This document shows, piece by piece, positions 7,101 to 46,812 of a DNA stretch of 54,869 nt. The DNA comes from a virus: IMG/VR virus record IMGVR_UViG_3300021371_000021, positions 1 through 54,869 of that record. The stretch is one strand, 5' to 3'. A program made the translations under genes and the position numbers. How positions within the stretch are numbered: position 1 is the first letter of the stretch; every line of letters starts with the position of its first letter. The notes below the pieces were generated by a model. The model was not told the DNA's origin, did no database searches, and saw nothing but the letters and a program-made list of their open reading frames with translations.

Positions 7101-10100
7101 CCAAAGGTAAAAACTCTTGACGGCAAACCTAAGCCTTCTTTCTTACTTCCTGAGTCTATTCGAGCGCGGGTTATAGCAGAGAATAAAAAAGGTCTTTCTG
7201 CAACACAGAAAAAAAGGTTAGTAAGGTTTGAGGAAAAGTTTCTATTAGTAACTCCTGAGTACCAAGGGCCAAAGCTTGATAAGTCTGCTGAGTTAGATTT
7301 AGCTGATAACAACTTACGTTTTGCTATTCAAGAAGTTATTGATGCTCGTAAGAATCGTGGTGAGGATAAAAATGTAACTTCGCTCATAGAAAAAATAAAA
7401 TCGCTTACTGCTAAAACCAATGTAGCACTAGATGGCCCCACTATAAAAGCAAAAAATTTAGACCCGTTAAAGTTTGAATCTTTGGAAGTGCAGGCAGGAG
7501 TAGAAGGTAAAAGTTTAATTGAAGCTGCTCGATTTGCTGCTAACAACGCTCCTAACAAAGATTTACAGGTCTTGGCATCTGCTTTAGCAAATGAGCTTAA
7601 GCGGCAACAGGATAAAGGGATTTTATTTGATTTTAAAGTTTTGCACGTAGGTAATACAGTTCCTTCGTGGGCAGGTTCACTGACAAGAAACTCTAGGGGT
7701 ATTACTGGTATAACTGACACAACTGTATCTGTAGTGTTAAACGGAGCGGACGTAACAGGCAGAGTTGGCACTAGCTATAAAACCCTTGTGCATGAGTTAT
7801 TTCACGCAGCGACAATGGCTACCATACGTAATAAAAACAACAAAAACACCGCTCAACAAAATGCTGCTGTGCAAGACCTAACAAACCTTAGAGAATTTGT
7901 GCTAAGAAACTACTATACGAATAAAAATAAAAGAAACCTATCGGATATTGAAAAGCAGTTTGCGGAAGGCACTAACAATTTCTTTAAGAATAATGACGAA
8001 TTAGTCACTTGGGCTATGACAAGTCCAGAAGCGGCAGCTTATTTAGAATCCATACCATACGAACGAACAAACGTTTTTTCTGCTTTTGTGCGTATTATGC
8101 GCAAAATGATTGGTCTGCCTGAGTCCGCTGATGGGAACACTGCTTTATCTGAAGCAATACGTGTTACTGAAGTTTTATTAGGTAAGAACGCTGTAAACGC
8201 AGCTATGCGCAAAGTACAAAAAATAGAGGGTGCAGACTTAGCGGCTACTGAGCTACCTAATTTTGCTAGTGGTGCGTATATACCCGGACTAAATACAATA
8301 GTAATAAATACTGTTACAGGATTAAACGAGCATACCCTACTACATGAGTCTGCACACGCAGCTCTTGCTCAGATATTAGATAAGCCTAATCACCCGATTA
8401 CAAAAAAGTTTATGCAATTCTTTGCCGACGTAAAGCCAAAGGTTGGGGATGCTTACGGTGGTACAAACATACAAGAGTTTGCCGCTGAGTTTGTGAGCAA
8501 TGGAGAATTTCAAGCAATACTGCAAAGAATCAAAGCACCAAAAAGTGAAAACATGTTCGTCCGTATTCTTCAAACTATTCTTGAGGCATTCGGTATACGC
8601 AAATCACAAAGTGCTTACGACGTGACGTTAAAGTTTTTAGAAGAGCTGTTAGATGTATCTCAAGGAGTAGAGCCTACACTAGCGGATACCCTATACCTAA
8701 CTAATGAAAACATAGACGAAGTAATAGACGACACAATAAACGACTCTACAGATTCATTCGTAACCAGAAATACTGAGGCTGCGCTCGACACTGTGTCAAA
8801 GATACAAGACGACAAAGCTAGAGTGCTTGCATTAGGTGCTGCTAGCTTAGCTAACATGGATAACATGTACGGAGAAAATTCTCCTAGATACCGCAATAAT
8901 AATCCTTTGCCTATAGGCAGACTAATGTCCTTTATTGAAAGAAAACGTGGAGAAGTCAATAAGGCTATTGATAGGACTAGCAAAAACATTAGGATGATGA
9001 ACAAAGCGGAAAGAAAAGCTACTGCAGCTCAAAAACGAGAGTTTAATGATATTGCTATAGAGGCTCGTCTTGAAAGTGTAGATTTTTTAAAGCCTTTGCC
9101 AAAAAATGCTAGTGCTAAACAAGCGGCTGCGTACAAAAAACTAAACGTCAGATTTAATCGACTGCCTAAACCTATGCAAGCGTCGTATAAAACTTTACGT
9201 AAAGAACTGGACACGTACCTAGAAGAATACGTTGAGCTTATCACTGAGATACTGCCTGAAAGCTCAGCTAGAGAGCTAATGAAAAATTTTGTTAACTTAG
9301 AAGGTGTTGTTGCTTACGTACCTTTTGAACGCACTGGTGAGTATTACTATAGGTTTAAAGACCCTGCTAATTTAGATGCAAAGGGTAACCCAAAAGATAC
9401 GCCTGTAGCCGCAGAGTCTCCAAGAAAAAGAGATATAGCCGTAGCAGCGCTTAAAAAGAAATACGGACAAGATTTTGAAATTAAACAGTACGACAATATT
9501 GATACTATGGGTGTGCCAAAAGGACTACCTGAAGGGCAGTTTGTTACTAAGCTTGTAGGAGAGATGCGGAACAATAATATTGATAGCGCAATAATAGATC
9601 AAGTATATCAGCAGTACGTAGCTATGTTTCCAGAAAAGTCTATTATGCAACAGTTTAAAAAATCTAAAAACTTGCCCGGTATGGATAGAGATATTATCGG
9701 TGCATACTCTAACGTGTCTATTAAATGGGCTAACAAAATAGCGAACACCAGATACAATTCGCAAATTGAAACCGCGATGCAAGAGATAAGAAGGACAGCT
9801 AAAGAATATCACGGCGATAATAAATCCATGATGGCTGCCTCAAAAGCCCTAACAAAACAAGAAGCTTTCTTTTTGAACCCCACAGTAAACCCTATAGCTG
9901 CAGGACTTACTTTTGCTAGCTACTTTGAATACATTTTAGGTAGTTTATCTTCGGCTGTTGTTAACGTAACTGGCTTAGTCTTTATGGTAACACCCATGCT
10001 GGGTGCACGTACTACGTATCCTGAAGCTTTAGCTGCATTACAAGCGGGGGGAAGATTAGCCGCCGGTAAAGCTTGGCGTGACGGAAAACTAGATGGTCCG

Positions 10101-11405
10101 CTAAGCAAGTATAAAAACATGTACACTGAGTTGGATAATCGTGGACTACTCAAGCACACCGTAGCTAGGGAAGCATTGGAACGTGGTAAGACAAAAGGAA
10201 AAGATTTTGATGGTACGTTCTACAAAGCAGTAGAAATATTTTCCACGCCTTTCGCTGCAAGTGAGCGTTTTATGAGAGGAGCTACGGCTATTGCTGCTTA
10301 TGATTTAGCGATGAAAAACGGTATACCTTCTGAGGGGGTGGCTGCAAATAACGAACAGGCAGCTATAGACTTCGCAGCTAAAATGGTTAGGGATGCGCAC
10401 ACTGGCGGTATGGCAGAAACAATGCCACGGTGGATGCAAAATAGTTTTGGTCGTGTTGCGTGGACATTTAAGAACATAGTATTTCAACAAACCTACGTGG
10501 TAGCTACGTCGCTAAAGCAAGCTTTTATAGACTCTGATTTACCACCCGAAGTTAAACGTGCAGCGAGACGGCAGGTTGTAGGAACTTTCGGTCTAAGCTA
10601 CGCGCTACTTGGAGCAAAAGGATTACCTTTCTTTGGTGGTATAACTGTCCTTATGGATATGCTCAACTGGGTTTTTGGCGATGATGAAGAGCCTTACGAT
10701 GCAAGAGTAGAACTCCAAGAAATATTTGGGGATTACTTTTATACCGGCCTTATAGGGTCTGTAGCAAACATAAACATTAGTGAACGTGCAGCTTTAGGTA
10801 GAGATATATTTTATAGAGACGACCCCAAAAGTATTGAAGACTATGGACTTGTCCGTACAATTATGATGGGGCTAACTGGACCAATGGGGTCTTATTTAGT
10901 TGGTGCTGAAAAAGCTATTAGGGACGATCTACCTGCAGGTAGATACGCGTTTGCTGCTGAAGGGTTAACACCTACTTTTGTACGCAACGGCATAAAATCT
11001 TATCGTTATATGGTTGACGGGGCAAGAAATAGAGATGGTGATCCCATAGACACCGACATCAACGCATGGAACTTAATGACACAAGCAATAGGGTTTACCC
11101 CGGCGGACCTTTCAAACACTTATGAACAGCGTTCTTCTGCTAAAAACTTTGAGAATAAAGTACTTGCTAGAAAACAAAATATACTAAACAAGTATAAGAC
11201 CGCGAGAAAGCTAGGCAATAGATCGTTAGAAAGAGAAGCTGTAAAAGAAGCTTTAGCTTTTAGAAGACAGTTCCCTACGCTTATGGATGATACTACTTTA
11301 GAGCGTTCGTACAAAGCTAGTGTGCGTATAGATAGCGAAGACACGATAGCAGGTATTACATTTACTAAAGGTCTACGCTACAGAACAGATGAGTTCTTCG
11401 AGTAA
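4197..11405 (+). CDS. Giant polyvalent-type internal virion protein, tandem HExxH
   Basis: This 2402-residue protein begins with a short module (VVRMPNGDLVRFPNEMP) common at the start of phage internal proteins. Residues about 118-160 form a Gly/Ala-rich hydrophobic stretch, and about 310-640 are acidic and low in complexity. Two zincin-like motifs follow: HELFH at 1199-1203 with a possible third ligand E1268 (DELVTWA), and HESAH at 1383-1387 with E1427 (QEFAAEF). The C-terminal region, roughly 1830-2200, resembles large polyvalent protein-associated domains (LPD38-like, from memory). Polyvalent proteins are thought to enter the host with the DNA. Two metallopeptidase-like cores in one protein are unusual. 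Ejection is inferred from size, neighbours and the N-terminal module. Confidence 0.85.
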   Translation: MPVVRMPNGDLVRFPNEMPKEQISQFIETKFPNAFDTPKPSVGDIFDASLTRGAENVASTLQDDLPAYLASIFGQDEYAAAQIEEGRARRQAAAEASPAQYGSYKDVESIGDAVGFVAEKFGENVPILGGLAASALTGAVAAPLLGVGAATGAGIASALGSYSLMAPESFAGIYEETGTFAPGAASIAGAVNSALELVAPAQVLRSFSPSMRSGVVNAVLKKSGMRPSIAANAVKGVVKGAATEGTTEGTQEAVNIAAEKFVAENPLIFDSEDFKRITESAVAGAAVGLPLGGVGGVGRGITDRGQFKKDQAEAEFEAELEARLAQTPEEEVTEETVEEVITSSEAKAKNNRVVPTDVKELKKWGMDNLGIGPTAAILKPDGPIAGKDLTDPQQNQEVIDAITVFRDKLPFDSTRRPKLDQALKYLEDNKTIIGEASSVEETVDEPVVVPEEKEQAAPTPNEVNKELEALETETETETEVEALRRKATGFQTEKDTTYEEDVAERNAVDAAERQRELEALQEAEEDIPQTKPLWSKDLLGFLSDNFAFTKEKFDEVQNLSEDEMQSYLDVIDEEYDNLKFDGPLVEDTSESIAESIAESIADDSTVDEPAPDGSNTLKDDADAKVVFDQLGIDEAGSFELSTAEFNARLKEANDRIKVIEEAAKKAKEPVTSKTKDGEFLTRKEGDILVDESAEQRPITKSPTAKKDTPKKFRVGQDKLFYNNKTLARPAAAELNAFKAANPRKEDASTGAEILANYLDAYDSPEAALAVIAAEVNPSYSENTGLVLTTTPEDAAKAKAYINKSMGKEAKQALANNENFIVETLADVQRRNAKVKEDEKARKVSKLGRDKKAEELKDVGAGTKGARAVAKEKKKLVGETPRQIAKRIDAEEKARRDEEAESLAGQKEGTTGTMGAEIRNAEKIARRTEETLAQKARSDEWIAFVESLPTKNQKAFLASYKKIADAIADPKVKTLDGKPKPSFLLPESIRARVIAENKKGLSATQKKRLVRFEEKFLLVTPEYQGPKLDKSAELDLADNNLRFAIQEVIDARKNRGEDKNVTSLIEKIKSLTAKTNVALDGPTIKAKNLDPLKFESLEVQAGVEGKSLIEAARFAANNAPNKDLQVLASALANELKRQQDKGILFDFKVLHVGNTVPSWAGSLTRNSRGITGITDTTVSVVLNGADVTGRVGTSYKTLVHELFHAATMATIRNKNNKNTAQQNAAVQDLTNLREFVLRNYYTNKNKRNLSDIEKQFAEGTNNFFKNNDELVTWAMTSPEAAAYLESIPYERTNVFSAFVRIMRKMIGLPESADGNTALSEAIRVTEVLLGKNAVNAAMRKVQKIEGADLAATELPNFASGAYIPGLNTIVINTVTGLNEHTLLHESAHAALAQILDKPNHPITKKFMQFFADVKPKVGDAYGGTNIQEFAAEFVSNGEFQAILQRIKAPKSENMFVRILQTILEAFGIRKSQSAYDVTLKFLEELLDVSQGVEPTLADTLYLTNENIDEVIDDTINDSTDSFVTRNTEAALDTVSKIQDDKARVLALGAASLANMDNMYGENSPRYRNNNPLPIGRLMSFIERKRGEVNKAIDRTSKNIRMMNKAERKATAAQKREFNDIAIEARLESVDFLKPLPKNASAKQAAAYKKLNVRFNRLPKPMQASYKTLRKELDTYLEEYVELITEILPESSARELMKNFVNLEGVVAYVPFERTGEYYYRFKDPANLDAKGNPKDTPVAAESPRKRDIAVAALKKKYGQDFEIKQYDNIDTMGVPKGLPEGQFVTKLVGEMRNNNIDSAIIDQVYQQYVAMFPEKSIMQQFKKSKNLPGMDRDIIGAYSNVSIKWANKIANTRYNSQIETAMQEIRRTAKEYHGDNKSMMAASKALTKQEAFFLNPTVNPIAAGLTFASYFEYILGSLSSAVVNVTGLVFMVTPMLGARTTYPEALAALQAGGRLAAGKAWRDGKLDGPLSKYKNMYTELDNRGLLKHTVAREALERGKTKGKDFDGTFYKAVEIFSTPFAASERFMRGATAIAAYDLAMKNGIPSEGVAANNEQAAIDFAAKMVRDAHTGGMAETMPRWMQNSFGRVAWTFKNIVFQQTYVVATSLKQAFIDSDLPPEVKRAARRQVVGTFGLSYALLGAKGLPFFGGITVLMDMLNWVFGDDEEPYDARVELQEIFGDYFYTGLIGSVANINISERAALGRDIFYRDDPKSIEDYGLVRTIMMGLTGPMGSYLVGAEKAIRDDLPAGRYAFAAEGLTPTFVRNGIKSYRYMVDGARNRDGDPIDTDINAWNLMTQAIGFTPADLSNTYEQRSSAKNFENKVLARKQNILNKYKTARKLGNRSLEREAVKEALAFRRQFPTLMDDTTLERSYKASVRIDSEDTIAGITFTKGLRYRTDEFFE
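5961..6000 (+). repeat. Tandem 12-bp repeat (ESIA) within the giant gene
   Basis: Three near-perfect copies of a 12-bp unit coding SIAE/ESIA lie in the acidic low-complexity linker of the giant protein. A separate GAAACA microrepeat coding Glu-Thr pairs lies near 5605-5630. Both probably change length by slippage without affecting folded domains. Confidence 0.75.
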
Positions 11406-14474: not shown

Positions 14475-14708
14475 TTATTGCTCCAACTTAGCTATTATTT
14501 TTTGTATTTCTTCAGCTGCTGAAGGTTTAGGAATAGAAATACCCACAAACCAGTTATATACCGCTTGGCGACTAACGTTAAGTTTTTGTGCTACTTCGGT
14601 AACGGGCACATCGTTTTTAATGCACACCGCTCCGAAGTAAACGCCAAGAAGGTTTTTATCGGCAGCCTTATTTAGTTCTACAAATTTTAGGCTATATCCG
14701 TAACTCAT
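14475..14708 (-). CDS. Helix-turn-helix protein (XRE/Cro-like)
   Basis: This 77-residue protein is read from the ATG at 14708, five bases after the upstream stop; a GTG at 14729 would add seven residues. Residues about 34-57 form a helix-turn-helix (VTEVAQKLNVSRQAVYNWF) followed by a C-terminal helix. Such proteins bind DNA as dimers. It sits inside the replication operon between the SSB-like gene and the primase-helicase, not next to a divergent promoter. It is the only clear small DNA-binding regulator in the window and so the first candidate to recognise the 22-bp palindromes or the promoter-overlapping ACANTGT motifs (inference). Confidence 0.75.
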   Translation of the reverse strand: MSYGYSLKFVELNKAADKNLLGVYFGAVCIKNDVPVTEVAQKLNVSRQAVYNWFVGISIPKPSAAEEIQKIIAKLEQ

Positions 14709-14713
14709 TAGGC

Positions 14714-16021
14714 TTATTCGCTCCCCCACTCGTCAATAATAGAAGAAAGGTCTTCTCCGCTAGCTTGAGGTTCTTCTTTCTTTTTCTTGCGTTTCACTGG
14801 TTCCGCAGCCGGTTCTTCGTCGGCAAACGGATCAGGCTCAGGTGCACTCTGGATAGGTACAACATTTGACTCGAAACCATCGTTAGTATCTTCAGCAGTG
14901 AAAGGGCTATCGGAAGAGTTGCCCGCAACAAAGCCATCTTCTTCTGCTTCAAAAGGAGACTCTCGTGATACCTTCGGGGCTAACTTTTTGACCATTACTG
15001 CTTTAAGTCTTAGCGATATGCCGCCGGGACTATTTTGAGTCTTCTTGTAAGGCACGAACTCAACTTGTATATGCACTAAACTCTTGTGCGTCAGTTCAAA
15101 ATCCTTATCAAGTTTGTTGTTTTTTATATCGTATTGGTCAGGGACATCAGTTGGTCCACTTTCGTATGCGGCTTTTATCCTAGAAGTACCTTTATAAGTT
15201 CCTCCGTCTTGCTTTTTAAACGTCATTTTTAGGTCGTCATATTTAGCATATGCTTTATCCGTCTTACGTTTCTCGTCCCAAGCTGTTTTCATTAGGCCAT
15301 ATAGTTCTTTAGCTTGGTCTAGGTCCATTATAAAACCTAGTTCATAGGAAGCTCCGGGCGCATCTGAAGCGCAGGGTACACTGCGATTTTGCTCATCGCT
15401 CCACTTGTATGGTTGGTTTATGCGAGGCCAATCTGCAATTACATTCTTTATTACGTACGTCATATATTGCTCCTTAAAAGGGTTAAGTTCTGCAGCTTCG
15501 TTAAGCTGTTGTATGTTTGTAAGTTCTTCCTGTGTAAGAGGTCGAACGGGTTTGAAATATATCCTAGAAAGGTTTTCTACCTGTGAAAGATATATCTCTG
15601 TCAAAACAGTATGTAGCTGTTCTTTGTTGCTCTTAAGGTAATCCCTGTATTGGTACAGGGTCATCTTGTTAATTGACTTAGCAAACAAACTAGCTCCGCC
15701 AATACGCAAACTACATGCTGTTAATGAGTTCTCTTGTACTAAACTAATAGTTGTATAAAATTTACAGGGCTTACTTTTATACCCGGTTGCACCTTTGATG
15801 TTCTGCACACAATCAATACATCGGGCCGACTCTCTGTCTTCAAGCGGCACACTGGAGTCAGGGGTGTTGGAGTCCGAAGACCAGCACTTAAGCTTGCCTG
15901 AGTGGTCGTAGTAGTTCCTAGACAATAAACCTTCGTTCGTTATTACTGCTTCGACTGAGGTTCTAAGCTCACCTGTACTGGGGTCTATAAAGTGCCCGTC
16001 ATCGGTCCGTAGCCTGTTCAC
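14714..16021 (-). CDS. Putative ssDNA-binding protein with acidic tail and Cys cluster
   Basis: This 435-residue protein starts at a GTG whose GTGA overlaps the upstream stop. An N-terminal Cys pattern (CWSSDS...CIDCVQ...KPCKF, about residues 46-87) looks like a zinc site. The middle is beta-rich with a segment IQVEFVPYKK near residue 310. The last 90 residues are disordered, with Lys-rich and Asp/Glu-rich blocks ending in DEWGSE, as in bacterial and phage SSB tails that dock partner proteins. Position beside the primase-helicase supports a replication role. The OB fold is inferred, not visible, so SSB is the best guess only. Confidence 0.6.
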   Translation of the reverse strand: MNRLRTDDGHFIDPSTGELRTSVEAVITNEGLLSRNYYDHSGKLKCWSSDSNTPDSSVPLEDRESARCIDCVQNIKGATGYKSKPCKFYTTISLVQENSLTACSLRIGGASLFAKSINKMTLYQYRDYLKSNKEQLHTVLTEIYLSQVENLSRIYFKPVRPLTQEELTNIQQLNEAAELNPFKEQYMTYVIKNVIADWPRINQPYKWSDEQNRSVPCASDAPGASYELGFIMDLDQAKELYGLMKTAWDEKRKTDKAYAKYDDLKMTFKKQDGGTYKGTSRIKAAYESGPTDVPDQYDIKNNKLDKDFELTHKSLVHIQVEFVPYKKTQNSPGGISLRLKAVMVKKLAPKVSRESPFEAEEDGFVAGNSSDSPFTAEDTNDGFESNVVPIQSAPEPDPFADEEPAAEPVKRKKKKEEPQASGEDLSSIIDEWGSE

Positions 16022-23584: not shown

Positions 23585-23612
23585 AAAAAAAAGCCCCGCA
23601 CAAGGCGAGGCT
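23585..23612 (-). terminator. Rho-independent terminator ending the MoxR-region operon
   Basis: On the - strand AGCCTCGC, a short loop, and a GC-rich arm pair with one mismatch, followed by eight T (complement of 23585-23592). It lies after the last gene of the accessory early region and before the next promoter. Confidence 0.85.
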
Positions 23613-23623
23613 AAAAGGGGTAG

Positions 23624-23645
23624 GAGTTTAGTTTAGACTAAACTG
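23624..23645. repeat. 22-bp palindrome, copy 1 (degenerate)
   Basis: GAGTTTAGT, TTAG, ACTAAACTG on the + strand. It is the weakest copy, with the outer base of one arm changed. It lies between the 47-residue gene and the terminator, 90 bases upstream of VRR-NUC but separated from it by the terminator and promoter. Confidence 0.8.
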
Positions 23646-23659
23646 TTTCGGTTGGGTTA

Positions 23660-23803
23660 CTATTCTCTTATTCCCCCCTCATCCTGATCTGCAAGATACT
23701 CTTGGTATTGTATCTCAGCTTCGAGGGGGTCTACATAGTCATCTTCCTGCGTCATAAGATAACGGTTAAGGTCTACCATCACTGGGTCTTTATCTCTATT
23801 CAT
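23660..23803 (-). CDS. 47-residue acidic protein
   Basis: It starts at ATG 23803, overlapping the previous stop as TGATG behind GAGGAGAAC, and ends at 23660. The product is very acidic (TQEDDYVDPLEAEIQYQEYL). It is the last gene before palindrome copy 1 and the terminator. Function unknown; the small size and charge recall phage inhibitors of DNA-binding host proteins, but nothing more supports that. Confidence 0.6.
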   Translation of the reverse strand: MNRDKDPVMVDLNRYLMTQEDDYVDPLEAEIQYQEYLADQDEGGIRE

Positions 23804-24030
23804 CACTTGTTCTCCTCTATTGACCCAAAAATTTTAAGTTCCATTTCCATCCGCTTCGATTCGCGTAACGTCTGCGCGTAGTGATCGGCAATATCATCTT
23901 TATATGTTCGAGCAAGGGGTACTTCTTTTTTCCTCTCGTTCTCCCGCTCTTCAAGAATACCTTTTACCTCCGCTAGCAAACTTTTTAAATCTGCCGTTCT
24001 CCATGTGTTGTAATCCCAATCATCACTCAT
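23803..24030 (-). CDS. 75-residue coiled-coil protein
   Basis: It begins behind AAGGAGAACAAGCG. The product has a helical LKSLLAEVKGILEERENERKK segment and a second helix (DHYAQTLRESKRMEMELK). No family is recognised. It follows the 287-residue MoxR-associated gene by 26 bases and is coupled by TGATG to the next small gene. Confidence 0.6.
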   Translation of the reverse strand: MSDDWDYNTWRTADLKSLLAEVKGILEERENERKKEVPLARTYKDDIADHYAQTLRESKRMEMELKIFGSIEENK

Positions 24031-24056
24031 CGCTTGTTCTCCTTATTGTTTGTGGG

Positions 24057-24920
24057 TTACCAGTCAAACTGACCAAGAATAGAGTCAACCTTAGACTTCA
24101 TGTTTTCACGGATAGCCGGTGAGTCTTTAATCACCTCGATGTCCGCACCTTCCATAGTTCGTTGTAGCATAACCCTAGCTCTATCTAGCTCTGGGTCATT
24201 GGTTACATTGAGATGCCCAAGGAAGTCACATAGTTCTTTCGGATTACTAACAAAGCTATCGTAGAATCTCTTGGGGGTATCATCTTCGTTCTCGGTCAAC
24301 TTACCGCTCATACTAGTAAGCGTAGTGTGCAACCTATCCCAAGCAGTGTTCATTGCGTTCTGAACCTTGCTTTTACTTTCTTCTTCTAGCTCTTGCCTCA
24401 AGTCATCTAAGTCTTGGGCAGGTAAGTCTACGTATGGGTGACCAGTCAGAGGAACCAGTTTAGTTTTCAACTCCCAAGAGTACTTAGCATAGACATCGTT
24501 TACATCTGGGTAGTCTGCTTCTTCAGCCATATCGCCTAGGTAGTTAGCTGAAATCTGCTTGAGCCGGTCATAGTGCTCACAGATGTAATCTCTGCGCCTA
24601 TAGAACTCACTGCTAAGCTTACCGTTCTTCTCACTAAAGTCAGTCTTGAAAGGAAGGTACAGGCTAGTAGAGATCAACCTGTCACCCATATCATCCCAAG
24701 GCAGAGTGCGAACCGAATACTCATTGCGACTTTTGTTGGCATACTTAGTTAGTTCACTTACGTAGTTAGAACCTACCATAAGGTCTTTGATAACCTTGCC
24801 TGCCTTCTTGTCTGCTCGTGCTCTCACAGTCAGATCGTCTGTCTGCTTCTTGTCTATCTTCTTAGCTGTCCATGTGGATATGCTAAGCCTTACTAACATT
24901 GCGCTACTTGAAATACTCAT
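24057..24920 (-). CDS. MoxR-cluster associated protein (DUF3150-like)
   Basis: This 287-residue helical protein begins SISSSAMLVRLSISTWTAKK, a start I associate with phage and prophage proteins encoded beside MoxR ATPases (often labelled DUF3150; label from memory). It continues with mostly helical, acidic sequence (DLDDLRQELEEESKSK) and no catalytic motif. An AAGGAGAAAC ribosome site precedes it, and palindrome copy 2 lies 26 bases upstream. It probably works with the MoxR-VWA pair encoded just before it as an adaptor or substrate (inference from context). Confidence 0.65.
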   Translation of the reverse strand: MSISSSAMLVRLSISTWTAKKIDKKQTDDLTVRARADKKAGKVIKDLMVGSNYVSELTKYANKSRNEYSVRTLPWDDMGDRLISTSLYLPFKTDFSEKNGKLSSEFYRRRDYICEHYDRLKQISANYLGDMAEEADYPDVNDVYAKYSWELKTKLVPLTGHPYVDLPAQDLDDLRQELEEESKSKVQNAMNTAWDRLHTTLTSMSGKLTENEDDTPKRFYDSFVSNPKELCDFLGHLNVTNDPELDRARVMLQRTMEGADIEVIKDSPAIRENMKSKVDSILGQFDW

Positions 24921-24946
24921 ACTGTTTCTCCTTAAAGGTTAAGTTT

Positions 24947-24968
24947 CAGTTTAGTCTGAACTAAACTG
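24947..24968. repeat. 22-bp palindrome, copy 2
   Basis: CAGTTTAGT, CTGA, ACTAAACTG on the + strand. It is 26 bases upstream of the 287-residue gene's ATG, with the ribosome site lying between the palindrome and the start. Confidence 0.9.
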
Positions 24969-24982
24969 CATGGGTCTTACGG

Positions 24983-25231
24983 TTACTTTTCGGGTCTACC
25001 TGCTAGCTTACATACAGCGTACATAGCACTCGACATTGTTTTAGTCTCGCGTACTGAGTCCTCTGCATCACAGTCATACACATGATGCGTATAGAATGAC
25101 TCTCCACCATTATCGGAGCGCGACCATTTCTTCTGGTATCGTTCACAGTCATCCAGAATGTCATAGACAGCCTGCAGTTGCTCTGTTGACACCACATAGT
25201 GTTTGTCAGTTACCTCCAATATAAACTTCAT
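24983..25231 (-). CDS. 82-residue protein of the MoxR-VWA cluster
   Basis: The start overlaps the VWA stop as ATGA. The product begins MKFILEVTDKHYVVSTEQLQ, then a helix and a Ser/Asp-rich stretch, ending in a helix with Cys (SSAMYAVCKLAG). It looks like a small alpha/beta protein. No family assigned. Tight coupling to the VWA gene suggests a joint function. Confidence 0.6.
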   Translation of the reverse strand: MKFILEVTDKHYVVSTEQLQAVYDILDDCERYQKKWSRSDNGGESFYTHHVYDCDAEDSVRETKTMSSAMYAVCKLAGRPEK

Positions 25232-26460
25232 ACTCTTCTCTCCAGTTGAATTGTTTTGCCCACCGGCGCGGTTATCTTACTGTGTGGGTTGTGTATGCCC
25301 CACAACACAGGGCAGTCCCACTTACCCCAACCCATCACTTCACCATCTGTCAGTACAACAGTGGCATCGGGTTTGATCTGCTTCTCACGTAAGTAGTCAG
25401 CAACACAGCTTGGGTCTGTACCTCCTCCACCATGAGGTTTAGTCAGAGTGCGCCAGTTCTTAAAGTTACTGCTTGTATACTCCTCGTGTGCACACACATC
25501 TCCATCCCAGTACATCAGGTGTATCTTGGCTATCTCTAGCTGTGTAGCCATACCCTCTACCTCTGACATACACACCTCAAAGGAATCATCGAAGAACATG
25601 GACCCAGACACATCGGGGGCAACGACCAGTTCTTTGATACACTGTCCCTTCATAATGGGCATCACCAGACCAGTGGTTACCCAGAACCTACGGTCGATGC
25701 GATCGTAAGAAGCATTGACGGGCTTACTACACGTCGCTCGTAGCCAGTGCTTCATCTGCTCGACCCAGTCGATCTTAGGTGCAAGCAGCCCACCAAGTGC
25801 TAGCGCACCCTCACCTTTGCCCTTGCCTGCTTTCTTTGCAGCCATAATACCTTGGCGTATAGCGGAGTTGACCTCTGCCTTGAGTGCTTCTTTCTCCTCG
25901 CTGGACATACCTTTAGCACCTTCCCAGTCATGGTCGTCCAGACCACCAGAGCCACCATCTCCATCGCCACCATCTCCATCGCCATCATCATCCTTATCTT
26001 TCTCGGCATAGATAATGTCAAAGATTTGTTTGATCGCCATACCCTTGAACCTTTCGTCAATAAGACCTACCGGATTACCTTCGGGGTCTTTGGGCATAGC
26101 GACAATCGTTTCCTGTGGGTCCGATGCTACTATGGTCTGGTTAATCCAATAGTCACAGGCTTGGTTCGCAGTACTGGCGCACAACCTATGTAGTTTCTCG
26201 TATATCTCAAGATGCCTACCGGCTTTGTGCCAATTCTCATGCAGGGTAATGAACCCTGCGCCTTTATCCCCCCACTGAAAGATAAAGTCAGGGTTGTACT
26301 TCTCGTCCCTACCGTTCGTACAGGCAGTAGGTACATCCCTTGTGAACTCTCGTGTGCCTGTCATCATGATGGGTCCAAGCTCAACGAACTTATCGCTCCT
26401 CATAATCTCAATGCGTTTACGTTTAAACCTACGTAGCTTTTGATCATCTGTTAGTTCCAT
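25228..26460 (-). CDS. VWA-domain protein with zincin-like N-domain (DUF2201-like)
   Basis: This 410-residue protein has two parts joined by an Asp/Gly-rich linker (residues 155-175). The N-domain holds HENWH at 74-78 followed by NQACDYWIN, matching the putative metallopeptidase domain usually paired with VWA in DUF2201 proteins. The C-domain is a von Willebrand A fold with a full MIDAS: D283-x-S285-x-S287, T348 in GGGGTDP, D372 in LTDGE. VWA proteins of this kind act with a MoxR AAA+ partner as a chaperone or remodelling pair (RavA-ViaA, CobS-CobT style). Here the MoxR gene lies nine bases upstream. The target is unknown. Confidence 0.85.
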   Translation of the reverse strand: MELTDDQKLRRFKRKRIEIMRSDKFVELGPIMMTGTREFTRDVPTACTNGRDEKYNPDFIFQWGDKGAGFITLHENWHKAGRHLEIYEKLHRLCASTANQACDYWINQTIVASDPQETIVAMPKDPEGNPVGLIDERFKGMAIKQIFDIIYAEKDKDDDGDGDGGDGDGGSGGLDDHDWEGAKGMSSEEKEALKAEVNSAIRQGIMAAKKAGKGKGEGALALGGLLAPKIDWVEQMKHWLRATCSKPVNASYDRIDRRFWVTTGLVMPIMKGQCIKELVVAPDVSGSMFFDDSFEVCMSEVEGMATQLEIAKIHLMYWDGDVCAHEEYTSSNFKNWRTLTKPHGGGGTDPSCVADYLREKQIKPDATVVLTDGEVMGWGKWDCPVLWGIHNPHSKITAPVGKTIQLERRV

Positions 26461-26469
26461 ACGGTTCTC

Positions 26470-27570
26470 CTATAGTAAGTCTTGGTTACGTTCAGCCCAC
26501 TCTGCGAACGCTCGTGAGGTAAAGGCTAGCCTACGCTTAGCATCAGTAGAGTTAGGACCGGCTAGACTCACACCAAAGATCACTTGAAACTCCTCGGTAT
26601 CATAGTCTGCATCGTCCCTGCTTATGTACGTCATGAACGAATCCAAATCTTCCTTGTCCTTGATATGCTCCAGTGCACTGAACGTCAGTACTGCACAAGC
26701 CCCTGCATTCGGGGGCAGTGGGGCTGTCGTTGGGTTAGCTTTGATCTCGCTCCAAGGAGTCATAGACTCATGATGCTGTATGAAATGCGTGATTGAATTA
26801 GCCGCTGATGCACCTACGGTACCAACCAGAGCCGCCTTCAACGCATTGGCTGAGTAGCCATGGCGCGTCTTGACCAAGTTACTTGCAAGCTCCAGTGTCC
26901 TTGGCGTTACCACTGAACCCTGTCCCACAACGTCAGGGTCAAAAATATAGGGGTTGTTTTTCTGTCCGCTGTCTCGGTAAGAAGCCAAGCAGTCAGAGTT
27001 TCTACTCACCCATGCCATGATGATTGGTTCAATGTCGTTGTCAGCCGCCCACACCAACCACTCGTCACTATCTGGTTTACATATCTCAACAAACGAGACG
27101 CGCATTTTACTGTGGGCTTTGAGACTGTCGCCAACCCCATCGCTTTCGAGGTTACCTGTCATGAACACAATGCTACCTTCGGGTAATGGTAGGTCACCCA
27201 GTCGGGGGTCTTTGACTTCCAACAGTGGGTGCAATGTATTCTTCACCTCATCAGAACCTTTGGTGAACTCATCAAGGCATATGATGACCGGCTTACCCTC
27301 GTGCAGTCTGAATCTTGCGTTGGGGTAGTACTGTAGCGTCTTGGTCTGCATATCAGGTATCGGTATAGCACCATCGCCTATGCCCATGTTGGGTACATCA
27401 ATGATTGCATATGGGTAACCAGTTCTACGTGACAGCTCTGCCACAATGCTTGTCTTACCAACGCCCGGCTCACCTGCCAGATAGAATTTGTTACTGGGGT
27501 TACACGCTAGCATTGCCGGTGCTTCCACCAAAGTTACTGTGACACGATCTTCTAGTTTTACATTTTCCAT
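26470..27570 (-). CDS. MoxR-family AAA+ ATPase
   Basis: This 366-residue ATPase has Walker A GEPGVGKTS (33-41), Walker B VIICLDE (D100, E101), and sensor-1 Asn140 in VFMTGN. The spacing and the segment TLQYYPNARFRL fit the MoxR group. These hexameric ATPases remodel proteins with a VWA partner, and the next gene encodes one. A CGGAG ribosome site precedes the ATG, and palindrome copy 3 is 32 bases upstream, inside the end of the previous gene. In bacteria such pairs also belong to conflict systems; in a phage it could target a host complex, aid virion assembly or insert metal. I cannot choose between these. Confidence 0.9.
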   Translation of the reverse strand: MENVKLEDRVTVTLVEAPAMLACNPSNKFYLAGEPGVGKTSIVAELSRRTGYPYAIIDVPNMGIGDGAIPIPDMQTKTLQYYPNARFRLHEGKPVIICLDEFTKGSDEVKNTLHPLLEVKDPRLGDLPLPEGSIVFMTGNLESDGVGDSLKAHSKMRVSFVEICKPDSDEWLVWAADNDIEPIIMAWVSRNSDCLASYRDSGQKNNPYIFDPDVVGQGSVVTPRTLELASNLVKTRHGYSANALKAALVGTVGASAANSITHFIQHHESMTPWSEIKANPTTAPLPPNAGACAVLTFSALEHIKDKEDLDSFMTYISRDDADYDTEEFQVIFGVSLAGPNSTDAKRRLAFTSRAFAEWAERNQDLL

Positions 27571-27599
27571 ACTGTACTCCGTTAAGTTTAATTTATGTA

Positions 27600-28676
27600 T
27601 TACAGTTTAGTCTGGACTAAACTGTATGTTGCCCCATAACTGTTTACTGGTTTCTGTGGCAGAGGTATATTCAAATACTTCTGGTTAGGGTTGGGCTTAA
27701 CTTCACCCACTGGTAGTACGACCTCGCTGAGGATGGCATTGGAATACCCTCGCTTCAAAATATCATCTATCGTCTGGTGTATATGTTTGGGGTTGTAGTG
27801 AAACATAGCCTCCCTGTGCACAGTGGACCACGCCTTAGACATCGTCAAAGTAGCGCAGATGTCTAGCATGTCTGCCCAGTCCTCGATAACGTCACTCCGC
27901 ATTATGTTGCAGAAGGTAGACACTGTGTCTGGGTCGGGGAACGAACTCCTGTTTATGTTATACCTAGAGCGGTGAGGGTCGGTATGCTCCCTTACGTGCT
28001 TGTCTATTATCTTGCTGTTGTATTCGTAACCGCTTACCTGAGTATCCGCAGGATAAGCCACCTTCACCATAGCTTTTGCGTACTTCAAGAAAGGTTGGTT
28101 GAGTCTGCGTACCTCATTCATAGCCTTGCGGTTAATCCTATGAACAATCGCTCTCTCAGGTGTTATGGGTAGCCTGTCTTTACCTAGCACTATACTGCTT
28201 TCCCATAAGTGTTTACTGGTTTCCTTGTCAGACATACCTTCTCTAGTCTGGTAGTTCTGGTCAAAGGTTGAATACACACCTGCTCTCGTACTGGGCAGGT
28301 CATATATAGACACACCGCTGTTGTATAGTCCTTTAGGGGCTTCGGCTACACCACCAAAGGGTTGGATGATTGTGTTAATAAACGTTCTGGTGCTTAGTGT
28401 CATATAATCTTCAGCAGAAAGTCTAACTGTTCCATCTGAGTAGAAGTTCACACAGTCTGTCCCGTACAACCTGCATCGTATAACGTCTACCTCTTGACCT
28501 GACTGGTGGGTCTTACCTTTGCGTATAGTCATATGGGTTAGCCGTCTTTCACCCAATGGTCTTTTGCCTGCGTTTTTACCGTTACCTCGGATGGGTACAA
28601 CCCCACGCCAATGTCTCTCAGCCTGTTCGTAATCACGCAATGCCGGTAAACTATCTGTCTTCACATAATATCCCAT
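27600..28676 (-). CDS. Unrecognised 358-residue protein of the MoxR-VWA region
   Basis: The start at ATG 28676 is set by AAGGAG before it and by the upstream stop two bases away; a longer reading to 28709 overlaps that gene. The protein is basic and rich in Arg, Tyr and Asn with segments such as DVIRCRLYGTDCVNFYSDGT and LNIPLPQKPVNSYGATY, and no known catalytic motif. The last seven sense codons before the stop are built by palindrome copy 3, so the C-terminus (YSLVQTKL) is partly dictated by that DNA site. It lies before MoxR in the same transcript. Function unknown. Confidence 0.7.
   Translation of the reverse strand: MGYYVKTDSLPALRDYEQAERHWRGVVPIRGNGKNAGKRPLGERRLTHMTIRKGKTHQSGQEVDVIRCRLYGTDCVNFYSDGTVRLSAEDYMTLSTRTFINTIIQPFGGVAEAPKGLYNSGVSIYDLPSTRAGVYSTFDQNYQTREGMSDKETSKHLWESSIVLGKDRLPITPERAIVHRINRKAMNEVRRLNQPFLKYAKAMVKVAYPADTQVSGYEYNSKIIDKHVREHTDPHRSRYNINRSSFPDPDTVSTFCNIMRSDVIEDWADMLDICATLTMSKAWSTVHREAMFHYNPKHIHQTIDDILKRGYSNAILSEVVLPVGEVKPNPNQKYLNIPLPQKPVNSYGATYSLVQTKL
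27603..27624. repeat. 22-bp palindrome, copy 3 (within a coding end)
   Basis: CAGTTTAGT, CTGG, ACTAAACTG on the + strand, extended by one matching base pair on each side. It covers the last codons of the 358-residue gene and lies 32 bases upstream of the MoxR ATG. Confidence 0.9.
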
Positions 28677-28677
28677 A

Positions 28678-28842
28678 CTATTTCTCCTTGTCGTTTGATT
28701 GAATCTCAAGCCATTGCTTAAGATGTTTAGGGTCGTGCTTTGCTAATTCGTCACGTAGTTCTCTCTTGCGGTTAGCCTCCTCTGCTAGTTTGTCGTTACG
28801 CTTGATACGTAGAGCTACCATAGCGTCGATAAAGTTACTCAT
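28678..28842 (-). CDS. 54-residue basic helical protein
   Basis: The start at ATG 28842 overlaps the preceding stop as ATGA and has GAGGAG eight bases upstream; a longer start at 28902 lies deep in the previous gene. The product is a charged helix (LRIKRNDKLAEEANRKRELR) followed by HDPKHLKQWLEIQ. Function unknown. Confidence 0.6.
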   Translation of the reverse strand: MSNFIDAMVALRIKRNDKLAEEANRKRELRDELAKHDPKHLKQWLEIQSNDKEK

Positions 28843-29042
28843 ACGTGTTGCTCCTCTTCTGGCTTCAAAAAGTCCTGTAACAATTTTGGATCTGCACTCC
28901 ACAGCAACCCTGCAATGGCAGTCCAGTCGTTTGTATCGTATCTCGTCATCTCATCACTTGCGTCACGATAAATCTGTTCTACAACTGCGTTCACCAACCT
29001 TTTATGTGCAATAACATTTACGAAGTTAGAGTTACTCATCAT
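28839..29042 (-). CDS. 67-residue protein, paralogue-like to its upstream neighbour
   Basis: It starts at one of two adjacent ATGs (29042 or 29039) behind GGAGAACG. The product includes IAHKRLVNAVVEQIYRDAS and ends in an acidic stretch (FLKPEEEQHV). The ribosome site and double ATG match the next gene upstream base for base, suggesting duplicated translation signals. It overlaps that gene's stop by 11 bases. Function unknown. Confidence 0.6.
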   Translation of the reverse strand: MMSNSNFVNVIAHKRLVNAVVEQIYRDASDEMTRYDTNDWTAIAGLLWSADPKLLQDFLKPEEEQHV

Positions 29043-29244
29043 CGTTCTCCTGATTTAATTTATGTGCTAAGTACGCACCTATAGTTAGTAGCTCGTCCTC
29101 GTTCATATCTAATACCTCAGCGATTGCATCAGATGCTACCACCAGACCTATCCTTGCTATCTCTTCAATAACCAACGAATCAATATCATTGTTAACAGCC
29201 CATTGAGTCCAAGCATCAGTTACTCGCATTTCTTTACTCATCAT
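29032..29244 (-). CDS. 70-residue acidic helical protein
   Basis: I place the start at the double ATG 29244/29241 behind AGGAGAACG; the longer reading to 29265 overlaps the end of the membrane-protein gene and has no ribosome site. The product (AWTQWAVNNDIDSLVIEEIARIG, LDMNEDELLTIGAYLAHKL) is an acidic helical protein resembling its 67-residue neighbour in layout. Function unknown. Confidence 0.6.
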   Translation of the reverse strand: MMSKEMRVTDAWTQWAVNNDIDSLVIEEIARIGLVVASDAIAEVLDMNEDELLTIGAYLAHKLNQENDDE

Positions 29245-29251
29245 CGTTCTC

Positions 29252-29416
29252 CTATAGAAATACAATTACAGTTAACAACCATACAAACGTAACAACTGCG
29301 ATACCGGCAACACCTACACCAACAGCTAGCAGTGGCTTTACCCACCGCGACGTTCGCGCCCATCGGTACATGTCATGCGGGTCGTGCGTGTTGTATCTGT
29401 CTTTGAAGTCTTTCAT
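29252..29416 (-). CDS. 54-residue single-span membrane protein
   Basis: It starts at ATG 29416 behind GGAGGAAGG and ends 7 bases before the next start. The N-terminal 27 residues are basic and polar (KDFKDRYNTHDPHDMYRWAR), the rest is one transmembrane helix (LLAVGVGVAGIAVVTFVWLL then TVIVFL). The positive N-side suggests N-in orientation. Palindrome copy 4 lies 20 bases upstream. It could be a holin-like, anti-host or envelope protein; there is no lysis partner nearby to support a holin call. Confidence 0.65.
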   Translation of the reverse strand: MKDFKDRYNTHDPHDMYRWARTSRWVKPLLAVGVGVAGIAVVTFVWLLTVIVFL

Positions 29417-29436
29417 TAGCCTTCCTCCGTAGGTTG

Positions 29437-29458
29437 CAGTTTAGTCTGGACTAAACTG
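29437..29458. repeat. 22-bp palindrome, copy 4
   Basis: CAGTTTAGT, CTGG, ACTAAACTG on the + strand, identical to copy 3. It lies 20 bases upstream of the small membrane-protein ATG, just after the stop of the zinc-ribbon gene. Confidence 0.9.
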
Positions 29459-29467
29459 GTTTGGGTG

Positions 29468-29677
29468 TTACCGTTCATAACGCTTGGGATTGATTTGCTT
29501 CACGACATCCAAAGCATCGCTGTTAGTGAACGCCATGTAGCCTTGTTTATGCAGGGGGATAACAGTGTGCTTGTGTTGTCTAGCTACTGCCTCTCCGCAT
29601 TGCAAGCAGGATTGATAGCCTAGGTCTGCTCTAGCAGTGGGGAAGGGGGCATCGCAATAGATACACAGGTTTGTCAT
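29468..29677 (-). CDS. Zinc-ribbon protein (69 residues)
   Basis: Two CxxC pairs, C5/C8 (CIYC) and C24/C27 (CLQC), frame a PFPTARADLGYQS loop, as in small zinc-ribbon and DksA/TraR-like phage proteins. A conserved-looking segment KQGYMAFTNSD follows. It is the first gene after the promoter at 29767-29795 and palindrome copy 5, so it leads the long accessory operon. Such proteins can bind RNA polymerase or DNA; which applies here is not shown. Confidence 0.75.
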   Translation of the reverse strand: MTNLCIYCDAPFPTARADLGYQSCLQCGEAVARQHKHTVIPLHKQGYMAFTNSDALDVVKQINPKRYER

Positions 29678-29705
29678 ACTGTTAGCTCCATGAATAAAAG
29701 GTTAC

Positions 29706-29727
29706 CAGTTTAGTCCAGACTAAACTG
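29706..29727. repeat. 22-bp palindrome, copy 5
   Basis: CAGTTTAGT, CCAG, ACTAAACTG on the + strand, the exact reverse complement of copies 3 and 4. It sits between the promoter -10 box and the zinc-ribbon ATG, where a bound protein would block early elongation. Confidence 0.9.
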
Positions 29728-29766
29728 CTGTCTGAAAGTGAGACGAATTCCCACCAAACAGTATAT

Positions 29767-29795
29767 ATTATATCACGGCTACTATACAATGTCAA
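29767..29795 (-). promoter_or_regulatory. Perfect sigma70 promoter of the MoxR-region operon
   Basis: On the - strand TTGACA (29790-29795), 17 bases, TATAAT (29767-29772), with a TG one base before the -10 (extended -10). All twelve consensus bases match. Palindrome copy 5 begins about 40 bases downstream of the -10. The -35 continues as TTGACATTGT. Confidence 0.85.
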
Positions 29796-29858
29796 GTGGT
29801 AACGCTCCAAATAAAAAATTAAATTCTGTGCGCTGGGGTAAACATTAACAGTTTGCAA

Positions 29859-30183
29859 TGTTACAAAATGGGGCTTTGTTACATTTGTAAAACAGGTTTG
29901 TAACAATAAACGTAACAATAGAAACGCCCGTAAATACTGGGCTGTGTTACAAAGTTACCTGTATTGTTATAATGTTACATAAAATAATATATATATATAG
30001 GACTCTTGAACTTTGTAACACTGCTAGGACTTTTGCTTTGTTACAAGCTCACTCTATCTAGTATCCCCATACGTTACTTTTAAGACGTAACATTGTAACA
30101 ATACAAGCATTGTTATATATATCATAGGTTTACTTAGCCAAGCTAATGTTACACCTTAGACAAACACTTACATAAACGTAACA
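29859..30183. repeat. Array of TGTTACA/TGTAACA/CGTAACA heptamers, candidate origin
   Basis: At least a dozen copies of the heptamer in both orientations lie within 325 bp, for example at 29859, 29877, 29899, 29911, 29945, 29973, 30014, 30039, 30086, 30094, 30147 and 30177. Between them is an AT-only run (AATAATATATATATATA near 29984-30000). No gene occupies the region. Many short directional repeats next to an AT-rich easily melted block is the usual form of a replication origin with initiator-binding iterons. Alternatively it is a dense cluster of regulator sites for the promoters on either side. Confidence 0.6.
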
Positions 30184-30223
30184 ATAGGTAGCTAGCTCGT
30201 AAGCTACTATCATAAGAACTACT

Positions 30224-30245
30224 ATCATCTCACGATTGAGATGAT
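30224..30245. other. Hairpin-forming inverted repeat beside the repeat array
   Basis: ATCATCTC, six bases, GAGATGAT is a perfect 8-bp inverted repeat. A smaller one, TAGCT, four bases, AGCTA, lies about 25 bases before it. Neither has a T-run. Both are at the end of the heptamer array and could belong to an origin. Confidence 0.5.
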
Positions 30246-30263
30246 ATATAAGTAGAGTAGTTA

Positions 30264-30306
30264 GGGTGGGTGAGTTTGTCAGAAGGGGGGAGGAAGGGGG
30301 GAGGGG
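30264..30306 (+). other. G-run cluster (possible G-quadruplex)
   Basis: Runs of 3, 3, 6, 6 and 4 G on the + strand within 43 bases meet the general pattern for a G-quadruplex. It lies between the candidate origin and the terminator of the 236-residue gene. Function is not known. Confidence 0.4.
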
Positions 30307-30323
30307 AGTAGAAACTCGAGGCG

Positions 30324-30348
30324 AAAAAAAACCGCCCGAAGGCGGTTT
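30324..30348 (-). terminator. Strong rho-independent terminator of the 236-residue gene
   Basis: On the - strand AAACCGCC, TTCG, GGCGGTTT forms an 8-bp stem with a TTCG tetraloop followed by an eight-T tract (complement of 30324-30331, partly overlapping the stem). It ends the transcript of the single gene 30382-31092. Confidence 0.92.
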
Positions 30349-30358
30349 GGTAAGAGAT

Positions 30359-30374
30359 GCGCCCCGAAGGGCGC
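30359..30374 (-). other. TTCG-tetraloop hairpin after the 236-residue gene
   Basis: GCGCCC, TTCG, GGGCGC on the - strand, seven bases after the stop codon and ten before the terminator stem. It has no T-run of its own, so it probably protects the 3' end of the message or strengthens termination. Confidence 0.7.
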
Positions 30375-30381
30375 GTGAAGG

Positions 30382-31092
30382 TTAAACAAGGGCTGTGAGT
30401 AATTCCGCGACAGTCATTTTTCTCGGCGCGTCGATAAGCTTGCTTCTCTCGATTCGCTCGATCGCGGTTAGCAATGCCATGCGCAACGGTTCGGCTCGCT
30501 TGTCTCTCGATAGATCGGAAAGCTCCTCTTTGATTTCCGTGAGCTTTGATTTGAAAATACCTCGGCAGGTTTCCAAAGCATCGACCTTACCCTGAGCTTC
30601 TTTTTCGGAAGCTTTGTCTTCATTGGCTTTGGCTAAGGCTAGCTCGGCTTTGGCAATTTTTAAGTCGTTAACAACGGCTTTCTGCTCTTCGATGTACTCT
30701 ATCTTTTCTTGTTTGAGTTTATCAACCCGCAATTCCGATTCGGTTTTCTCTTTCGGTTCGACCGGCTCAGGTTTTTTGAGAGTCTTCCCAAAGTAGGCGT
30801 GCTGATAAGCTTGCCAACAAGAAGCGTACTTTGTGTTTACTGCTTGGATAATCGCGGCTAGCTCCTCGGCTTTCTCAAGTGACAGCCCGCATTTATCCGC
30901 GGCTTTCTGCTTTGTTTCTAGCTTGGTGTCCTCTCGGAATGCATTACAGCTGAGTCCGCCGTTAGCCGTCGTGTTGACAGCGTCCTCACCATAGCGATCG
31001 GCTAGCGTTTTCATTACCTCGGCTAATGCCAGCGTTTTGTTCTCATACGTTTCTATTATTATCTTAATCATTTCAGTAGTGAATTTATTCAT
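30382..31092 (-). CDS. Unrecognised 236-residue protein, single-gene early unit
   Basis: This protein has a helical N-terminal domain (residues 1-105; with NGGLSCNAFREDTKLETKQK and LSLEKAEELAAIIQ) and a long charged coiled coil (about 110-205), then a short C-terminal domain ending MTVAELLTALV. It stands alone between a perfect promoter, palindrome copy 6 and a double terminator, next to the candidate origin. Base use (cgcg, tcgat runs) looks more GC-rich than its neighbours, a possible sign of separate descent. There is no good ribosome site directly before the ATG; AAAGGAGAAC lies upstream of the palindrome. A replication initiator or early regulator is possible by position only. Confidence 0.75.
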   Translation of the reverse strand: MNKFTTEMIKIIIETYENKTLALAEVMKTLADRYGEDAVNTTANGGLSCNAFREDTKLETKQKAADKCGLSLEKAEELAAIIQAVNTKYASCWQAYQHAYFGKTLKKPEPVEPKEKTESELRVDKLKQEKIEYIEEQKAVVNDLKIAKAELALAKANEDKASEKEAQGKVDALETCRGIFKSKLTEIKEELSDLSRDKRAEPLRMALLTAIERIERSKLIDAPRKMTVAELLTALV

Positions 31093-31102
31093 AAGCTTGT
31101 AT

Positions 31103-31124
31103 CAGTTTAGTCTAGACTAAACTG
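31103..31124. repeat. 22-bp palindrome, copy 6 (perfect)
   Basis: CAGTTTAGT, CTAG, ACTAAACTG: all 22 bases are self-complementary. It lies between the -10 box at 31164 and the start at 31092, ten bases before the ATG, and takes the place of a normal ribosome site. Confidence 0.92.
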
Positions 31125-46014: not shown

Positions 46015-46803
46015 ATGAGCGGATGGGGTCAACGTCCTTGGGGGTTTAACGGATGGGGTGGAGAAGCTTCTAAAGTTTTACACCTAGGCGCAACATGGGG
46101 CGCTCGTGGATGGGGCGACGAAGGCTGGGGTGCTAATGGCATTGCAGTAGTAGGAACTGGGCAAGTCGGTTCTGTTACCCCTGCTTACGGACGTGTAGTT
46201 GTTGCTACCGGCGTTGCGGCTACAGGCGCGATAGGTACAGTAACTTTAGATTATACAGGGCTTGTTACCCTTACAGGGGTAGGAGCTACAGGCGCAATAG
46301 GCACAGTTAGCACTGTTGCAGCCTTTGATTTAACAGGAGTATCGGGTACAGGTTTAATAGGGGACTTCACGGTAGGGGTAAATGAGTTTAATATCCCAAC
46401 AGGAGTCAGTGCTACAGGAGCAATAGGAACAGTTTCATTTAGTATAGGTAGCGTGTTTACCGTACCAAGTGGAGTAGCGGGGGCAGGGGCAGTAGGAACT
46501 GTAACCCCAACATACAACTGGAATTATACTGTTACCGGAGTAGTTGGAACAGGTACAGTAGGAACGATTACATCAACAGTAGTTTTAAATGTGGGCGGAG
46601 TTCCCGCCGCACAAGGTGTAGTAGGAAACGTAACAAACACAAGAAGTTCTAATGTTATTCCTATTGGGGTTGTTGGGACAGGTGCAGTAGGAACAGTAAC
46701 GAGATCAGGCTGGACTGCAATAAATACTTCACAAACACCGAACTGGGTTGGAGTAGACAGTTCACAAACCCCTAACTGGGTAGACATAGACACAGCAGCA
46801 TAG
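46015..46803 (+). CDS. Gly-rich repeat fibre protein
   Basis: The 262-residue protein has a Trp/Gly-rich start (GWGQRPWGFNGWGG), then about eight repeats of roughly 24 residues of the form GVxGTGAVGTVT, and a Trp-containing end with two NWVxxDSSQTP-like repeats. The repeats should form a beta-solenoid or beta-sandwich shaft. It is the first gene of the fibre cluster, so an attachment or connector function is likely. Confidence 0.75.
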   Translation: MSGWGQRPWGFNGWGGEASKVLHLGATWGARGWGDEGWGANGIAVVGTGQVGSVTPAYGRVVVATGVAATGAIGTVTLDYTGLVTLTGVGATGAIGTVSTVAAFDLTGVSGTGLIGDFTVGVNEFNIPTGVSATGAIGTVSFSIGSVFTVPSGVAGAGAVGTVTPTYNWNYTVTGVVGTGTVGTITSTVVLNVGGVPAAQGVVGNVTNTRSSNVIPIGVVGTGAVGTVTRSGWTAINTSQTPNWVGVDSSQTPNWVDIDTAA

Positions 46804-46812
46804 GACTAAATT

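Follow-up and report, generated by a model that had tools for sequence, protein, structure and literature searches.

The window, i.e. the whole stretch of 54,869 nucleotides analysed here, is the 54.9-kb record of a tailed phage (terminase, portal and PolA genes), whose early region is punctuated by six copies of a 22-bp palindrome, AGTTTAGT-4-ACTAAACT, the figure giving the number of bases between the arms. The preliminary description of this DNA placed the copies at 23624, 24947, 27603, 29437, 29706 and 31103, where all six indeed lie. Further copies at random places were not found in the 54,869 bases even with three mismatches allowed, and dinucleotide shuffles of the record yield 0.09 copies on average and one at most. 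The arms are perfect in five copies, a single outer base being altered in the copy at 23624. The four central bases, presented earlier as variable, do differ between copies but always follow the pattern YYRR in this genome, so that they are partly constrained; this rule is not kept in the close relative L095.

Five copies stand, as described, 10–32 bases upstream of a minus-strand start codon—10 bases for 31103, 28 for 29706, 20 for 29437, 32 for 27603 and 26 for 24947—and the sixth precedes the minus-strand terminator of the operon by 11 bases. The copy at 27603 had been said to lie within codons: it does overlap an open reading frame (ORF), but covers its last codons only, and in the relatives L094 and L095 the homologous site sits just past the end of the homologous alignment. 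The grouping of four copies in one operon has to be refined: the copies at 31103 and 29706 lie in leaders behind separate predicted promoters, each matching the consensus at 12 of 12 positions, so that the six copies span two transcription units. The distance from the -10 box to the palindrome is in both cases exactly 39 bp. From the positions of promoters and terminators, the palindromes thus extend over two units, beginning in a leader and ending at a terminator (Table 1). Promoters were scored against the sigma-70 consensus, and promoters and terminators alike are predictions. At none of the six palindromes is a minus-strand terminator (a hairpin followed by a U run) predicted.

Table 1. 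Palindromes, genes and predicted signals of the early region, in the direction of early transcription.
Feature	Position	Strand	Remarks
Predicted promoter P1	31164..31192	-	TTGACA-17-TATAAT, 12/12; before the regulator gene
Site 1	31103..31124		CAGTTTAGT-CTAG-ACTAAACTG; in the regulator leader, its start 39 bp past the P1 -10 box
Candidate cognate regulator, 236 aa	30382..31092	-	First of the early genes; neighbour of the gene for the terminase small subunit
Predicted terminator	30329..30348	-	After the regulator gene
Predicted promoter P2	29767..29795	-	TTGACA-17-TATAAT, 12/12; before the early operon
Site 2	29706..29727		In the early operon leader, ahead of the zinc-ribbon gene; its start 39 bp past the P2 -10 box
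Zinc-ribbon (DksA-like) gene	29468..29677	-	First in the early operon
Site 3	29437..29458		20 bp before the start (ATG) of an ORF of 54 codons (membrane protein in the preliminary description)
Gene of unknown function	27600..28709	-	Precedes MoxR; homologues occur with several palindrome types
Site 4	27603..27624		Upstream of MoxR (start 27570); kept in 63/67 relatives with a whole MoxR
MoxR-type AAA ATPase	26470..27570	-	PHROG 1297
VWA-type protein	25228..26460	-	PHROG 1314; MinM2 homologue annotated VWA-like
Site 5	24947..24968		Precedes the DUF3150-like gene; L094 and L095 keep a site in this position
DUF3150-like gene	24057..24920	-	Last conserved gene of the array
Site 6	23624..23645		A single altered outer base; immediately precedes the operon terminator; last pre-terminator site also in L094, L095 and L118
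Predicted early operon terminator	23592..23612	-	Just past site 6
Third predicted promoter	23568-23540	-	11/12; starts the replication genes; without palindrome

Relatives were collected by a terminase profile search, which gave 80 IMG/VR loci, and by MoxR profile and regulator searches, which added 109; single-protein searches with the MoxR and the 236-residue protein of the window yielded none, and alignments were needed. All relatives except Synechococcus phage MinM2 are metagenomic, and some loci overlap or are near-copies. Many of the loci with a covered early region have a repeated palindrome of their own, and several loci show no detectable array. Those with a terminase 65–85% identical carry 4–24 palindromes in the same early region. 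Inside each genome the arms are nearly fixed, the word (arms and spacer) being specific to that genome. The commonest has the arms CTAACA/TGTTAG with a spacer of 0, 1, 2 or 3; others are CCTACA-3 (L018, L122), TACTGTC-1 (L036), TTAAGTC-1 (L042), GGTTAC-5 (L021), CGTACGG-3 (L118) and more, with spacers ranging from 0 to 7. The nearest relatives are L094 and L095, whose MoxR is 80–81% identical to that of the window: L095 shares the window's word, and L094 has AGTTTAGG-5-CCTAAACT. The exact word of the window was also met in four viral contigs; none matches the window genes, and these occurrences look like chance or unrelated ones.

Absence of the sites from these gene borders in related genomes had been named beforehand as grounds for rejection; the outcome was favourable, the sites recurring at the same borders. 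L094 and L095 keep those of the leaders, MoxR, DUF3150 and the terminator, and carry extra ones; a site precedes MoxR in 63 of 67 genomes, whereas random positions give 13 of 67. A terminator follows the last site in 25/67 cases, against 13/682 for the other sites. Early-strand near-consensus promoters are followed by a site in 70 cases out of 105, its centre lying 33–122 bp past the -10 box (mostly 42–61), and none of the 105 is overlapped by a site, which supports the earlier statement that these are not simple promoter operators. In several near-complete CTAACA genomes that could be checked the listed sites form one block of about 9–15 kb. Some sites of CTAACA genomes overlap a start codon; in L033 (4421, 7003) and others the start codon lies inside the palindrome, as CTAACAATGTTAG.

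The palindrome could be a DNA site or an RNA hairpin; the preliminary description leaned to the former and proposed to look for compensating changes. Over 770 sites, 4727 core pairs are Watson-Crick against 4739.8 expected when partners are permuted within genomes, and compensated double changes number 27 against 34.2 by the same permutation. Among 504 copies with CTAACA arms, the bases of the next pair outward vary independently; for the second outer pair, pooling the copies gives a mild association, of which the genome-specific consensus could be the source. On the transcribed strand core G-U and A-C are equally frequent (4 vs 4 in the first 15 genomes), and the central A/T of CTAACA copies has no clear strand polarity outside start codons (A 226, T 194). 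Since paired bases do not covary, it is the DNA that is conserved and not a hairpin in the RNA: selection on an RNA stem would have left the reverse pattern. A protein site on DNA, as first favoured, is the better reading.

Two proteins had been put forward as readers of the palindrome. All ten records searched encode the helix-turn-helix protein (14475-14729), whose helix VSR..VYNWF is practically invariant across very different early regions; as this recognition helix does not change with the palindrome type, this protein is not the reader. The 236-residue protein, on the contrary, gains support from its position and from its co-variation with the palindrome. Its gene, the first early gene, is the sole examined early gene that splits by palindrome type, whereas the zinc-ribbon, MoxR, DUF3150 and terminase proteins are homologous across types. 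TAACA half-sites are accompanied by a family of 82 proteins, CCTACA and GTC-N-GAC by one other family each, and TTTAG by the window family; within the sample the correspondence of regulator family and word is one to one. In profile comparison the CTAACA family is linked to the CCTACA family (probability 91), but neither to the window family nor to that of L036/L042. A site lies at most 300 bp upstream of the regulator gene in 52 of 57 cases (control 11). In L050, L174-L178, L187 and L190 the regulator gene is present twice near the terminase, several of these relatives having sites around both copies.

The correspondence extends to the spacing of the half-sites. Inside the large family a spacer of 2 tracks the YW.RVK subfamily (5/6 vs 2/43, Fisher p 6e-5), and on the terminase tree four of five independent switches agree with this rule, none going the opposite way. 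On the MoxR tree the palindrome label requires 17 changes. L140 and L141, about 88% identical in DNA around the sites, differ from each other at three homologous sites by one inserted spacer base, and L147 is mixed, with six sites of each spacing. A dimer that acts in trans and changes over time would select for such a joint shift at many sites. A mosaic spread by recent copying alone is argued against by the shared borders in relatives and by this concerted one-base change.

From what the computation shows—the sites, where they are placed, the absence of any covariation expected of an RNA and the joint change of protein family and word—we infer binding, dimerisation, autoregulation, roadblock and timing as follows. 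The palindromes would be double-stranded DNA sites for a sequence-specific, probably dimeric regulator encoded at 30382-31092. This protein would act on its own leader, and on the early operon as a whole, through sites placed past the promoters: in each leader, at most gene borders and before the terminator. Once accumulated, it would most likely slow or stop the elongating host RNA polymerase as a roadblock, making early transcription self-limiting, unit by unit; it could also act on a superinfecting phage genome bearing the same word. Sites past promoters and at borders, without promoter overlap, fit a control of elongation like that of stoperators. We hold it reasonably probable that a DNA-binding protein of the phage, itself autoregulated, governs early transcription from beyond the promoters, most likely by an elongation roadblock.

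Several observations weigh against this proposal. The independent switches are too few for significance (sign test 4:0, p 0.125), and the spacing rule is broken by L153 (with the mixed L150/L151), which have YW at spacing 1, and by L049 and L137, of the other subfamily at spacing 2. Since regulator and sites occupy one region, shared inheritance of the early cassette could explain part of their association. In the distant isolate MinM2 (OQ594354), 37 copies of GGTTCAG-1-CTGAACC are spread genome-wide, late genes included. The regulator has no Pfam or PHROG family above the cut-off, no convincing fold match and no recognisable DNA-binding domain, so that the case for its DNA binding comes from sequence genetics only. 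AlphaFold models of the regulators of L131 and the window (pLDDT 79 and 81) show a helical N-terminal domain, of about 100 residues in the window protein, a flexible linker and C-terminal helices, long in the latter. For the regulators tried, no recognisable relative appeared in any isolated phage.

The bound protein might instead act positively, as an antiterminator or elongation factor loading onto RNA polymerase at leader and borders, or by otherwise keeping the long operon transcribed. This we think unlikely: sites just past promoters, at borders and before the terminator would also suit a processivity factor, but a DNA-level palindrome at every border is unusual for antiterminators, and the pre-terminator site and the one upstream of the regulator's own gene would better suit negative control. 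A roadblock is thus preferred to antitermination, the choice being unproven. Ordinary operator repression, with sites active only near promoters and internal ones as decoys or serving undetected internal promoters, appears improbable. Most near-consensus promoters of the early strand do have a site shortly downstream, yet none is overlapped; internal sites recur at corresponding gene borders from genome to genome, as the pre-MoxR site illustrates, and those of the window have no consensus promoter upstream.

We give quite a small chance to a role in genome organisation, be it partition, replication, DNA condensation or recombination of cassettes at gene borders. Dispersed palindromes read by a fast-evolving protein would fit such a role, as would the joint switching of regulator, sites and early cassette and the genome-wide sites of MinM2; against this, ParA and ParB families were not found in nine records, the sites form one block behind promoters, and the homologous sites of L140 and L141 differ by one base without exchange of their flanks. 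RNA hairpins upstream of ribosome-binding sites, controlling translation or messenger stability, are very improbable: the sites are transcribed, foldable and close to start codons, some CTAACA ones overlapping them, but covariation is missing, the outer pair is independent, core G-U is no commoner than A-C and the distance to the start codon varies. Hairpin promoters for an N4-like virion RNA polymerase were rejected as hardly credible, since the weak PHROG match bearing that name, in a 2402-residue protein, overlaps the metallopeptidase-like part of what resembles a solved internal virion protein with HExxH-like motifs and not a polymerase, no RNA polymerase was found, and separate host-type consensus promoters are present.

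As to what an elongation roadblock would serve, matches to PF00589 (5 records) and to PF00239, PF13614 and PF02195 (9 records) were sought, and no integrase, resolvase, ParA or ParB was found; the phages therefore look lytic, so that the likely uses would be the timing of early shut-off or the exclusion of superinfecting relatives. We propose, more tentatively and as a view that may well prove wrong, that regulator and operators form exchangeable modules: several unrelated orphan families of DNA-binding proteins would occupy one locus, each with its own word over the whole early operon. Co-infecting relatives that share a word would thereby silence one another, and those with other words would escape. 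Such specificity would be of the immunity type without lysogeny, in a large group of phages that are uncultured and apparently lytic.

A close comparison is with Cluster A mycobacteriophages (L5, Bxb1), temperate phages with an integrase or parABS, whose stoperators are 13-bp asymmetric sites in one orientation to transcription, read by a repressor that is a known protein (PMC6550527, PMC9283540). Common to both are the many copies of a short sequence, most of them off promoters, a genome-specific motif varying with its repressor—here the family correspondence and the spacing association—and a conserved site upstream of the repressor or regulator gene. The present sites differ in being palindromes with a spacer of 0–7, without clear polarity outside start codons; the proteins are orphan families with no match found to a known repressor family or fold, and the records searched gave no integrase or partition family. 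In Streptomyces phage phiC31, the conserved inverted repeats (CIR) are palindromic repressor-binding sites in intergenic regions, and may resemble the present ones; that phage differs in being temperate, with a characterised repressor.

Cluster K mycobacteriophages have start-associated sequences (SAS), an asymmetric 13-bp repeat GGGATAGGAGCCC at the start codon with a proposed role in translation initiation, and tied to them extended ones (ESAS), inverted repeats with 17-bp arms and a variable spacer (PMC3203893). Repeats near the start codons of many genes, and the inverted arrangement with variable spacer of ESAS, recall our sites, which are by contrast 22-bp palindromes standing alone, at a variable distance of 10–32 bp upstream of the start and with DNA-type conservation. 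MinM2, whose terminase is about 46% identical, has palindromes at many early minus-strand gene starts together with VWA, DUF3150 and MoxR genes; it is an isolated phage with a different first gene and sites extending into late genes. Altogether, the data suggest that environmental phages widely share a layer of early-gene control, and that its readers are protein families without annotation. Apparently each phage would have a private switch along its early genes, operated by a rapidly changing viral protein encoded beside the array. Dozens of natural protein-site pairs are thereby offered, some differing only in half-site spacing. Were the roadblock true, stoperator-like control would not be confined to temperate actinobacteriophages, and the need of a lytic phage for an operator that is private and switches fast would become open to direct test.

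Some minor observations deserve mention. Within 23568-23533, the third strong promoter (11/12) stops 7 bp short of the VRR-nuclease start codon (ATG), which suggests that the transcript of the replication operon is leaderless. The 2402-residue protein (4197-11405) has two HExxH-like motifs (HELFHAAT and HESAHAAL) and matches the solved internal virion protein 9sfn as well as families of the DarB type; the name 'virion RNA polymerase' that PHROG gives it seems misleading. At the right end, the large plus-strand genes of 46100-54600 contain many degenerate repeats with a period of about 150–160 bp, and are probably modular tail or fibre proteins. Terminase relatives L213-L223 come from metagenome-assembled genomes of bacteria and archaea of unrelated phyla, mostly on short contigs, and are probably misbinned phage contigs; L213 has a palindrome of its own, TTCGTAC-1, in 7 copies. 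Finally, the records OQ594354, OL906435 and PP438419 have equal length (65,014 bp) and identical terminase scores, with three different cyanobacterial hosts assigned.

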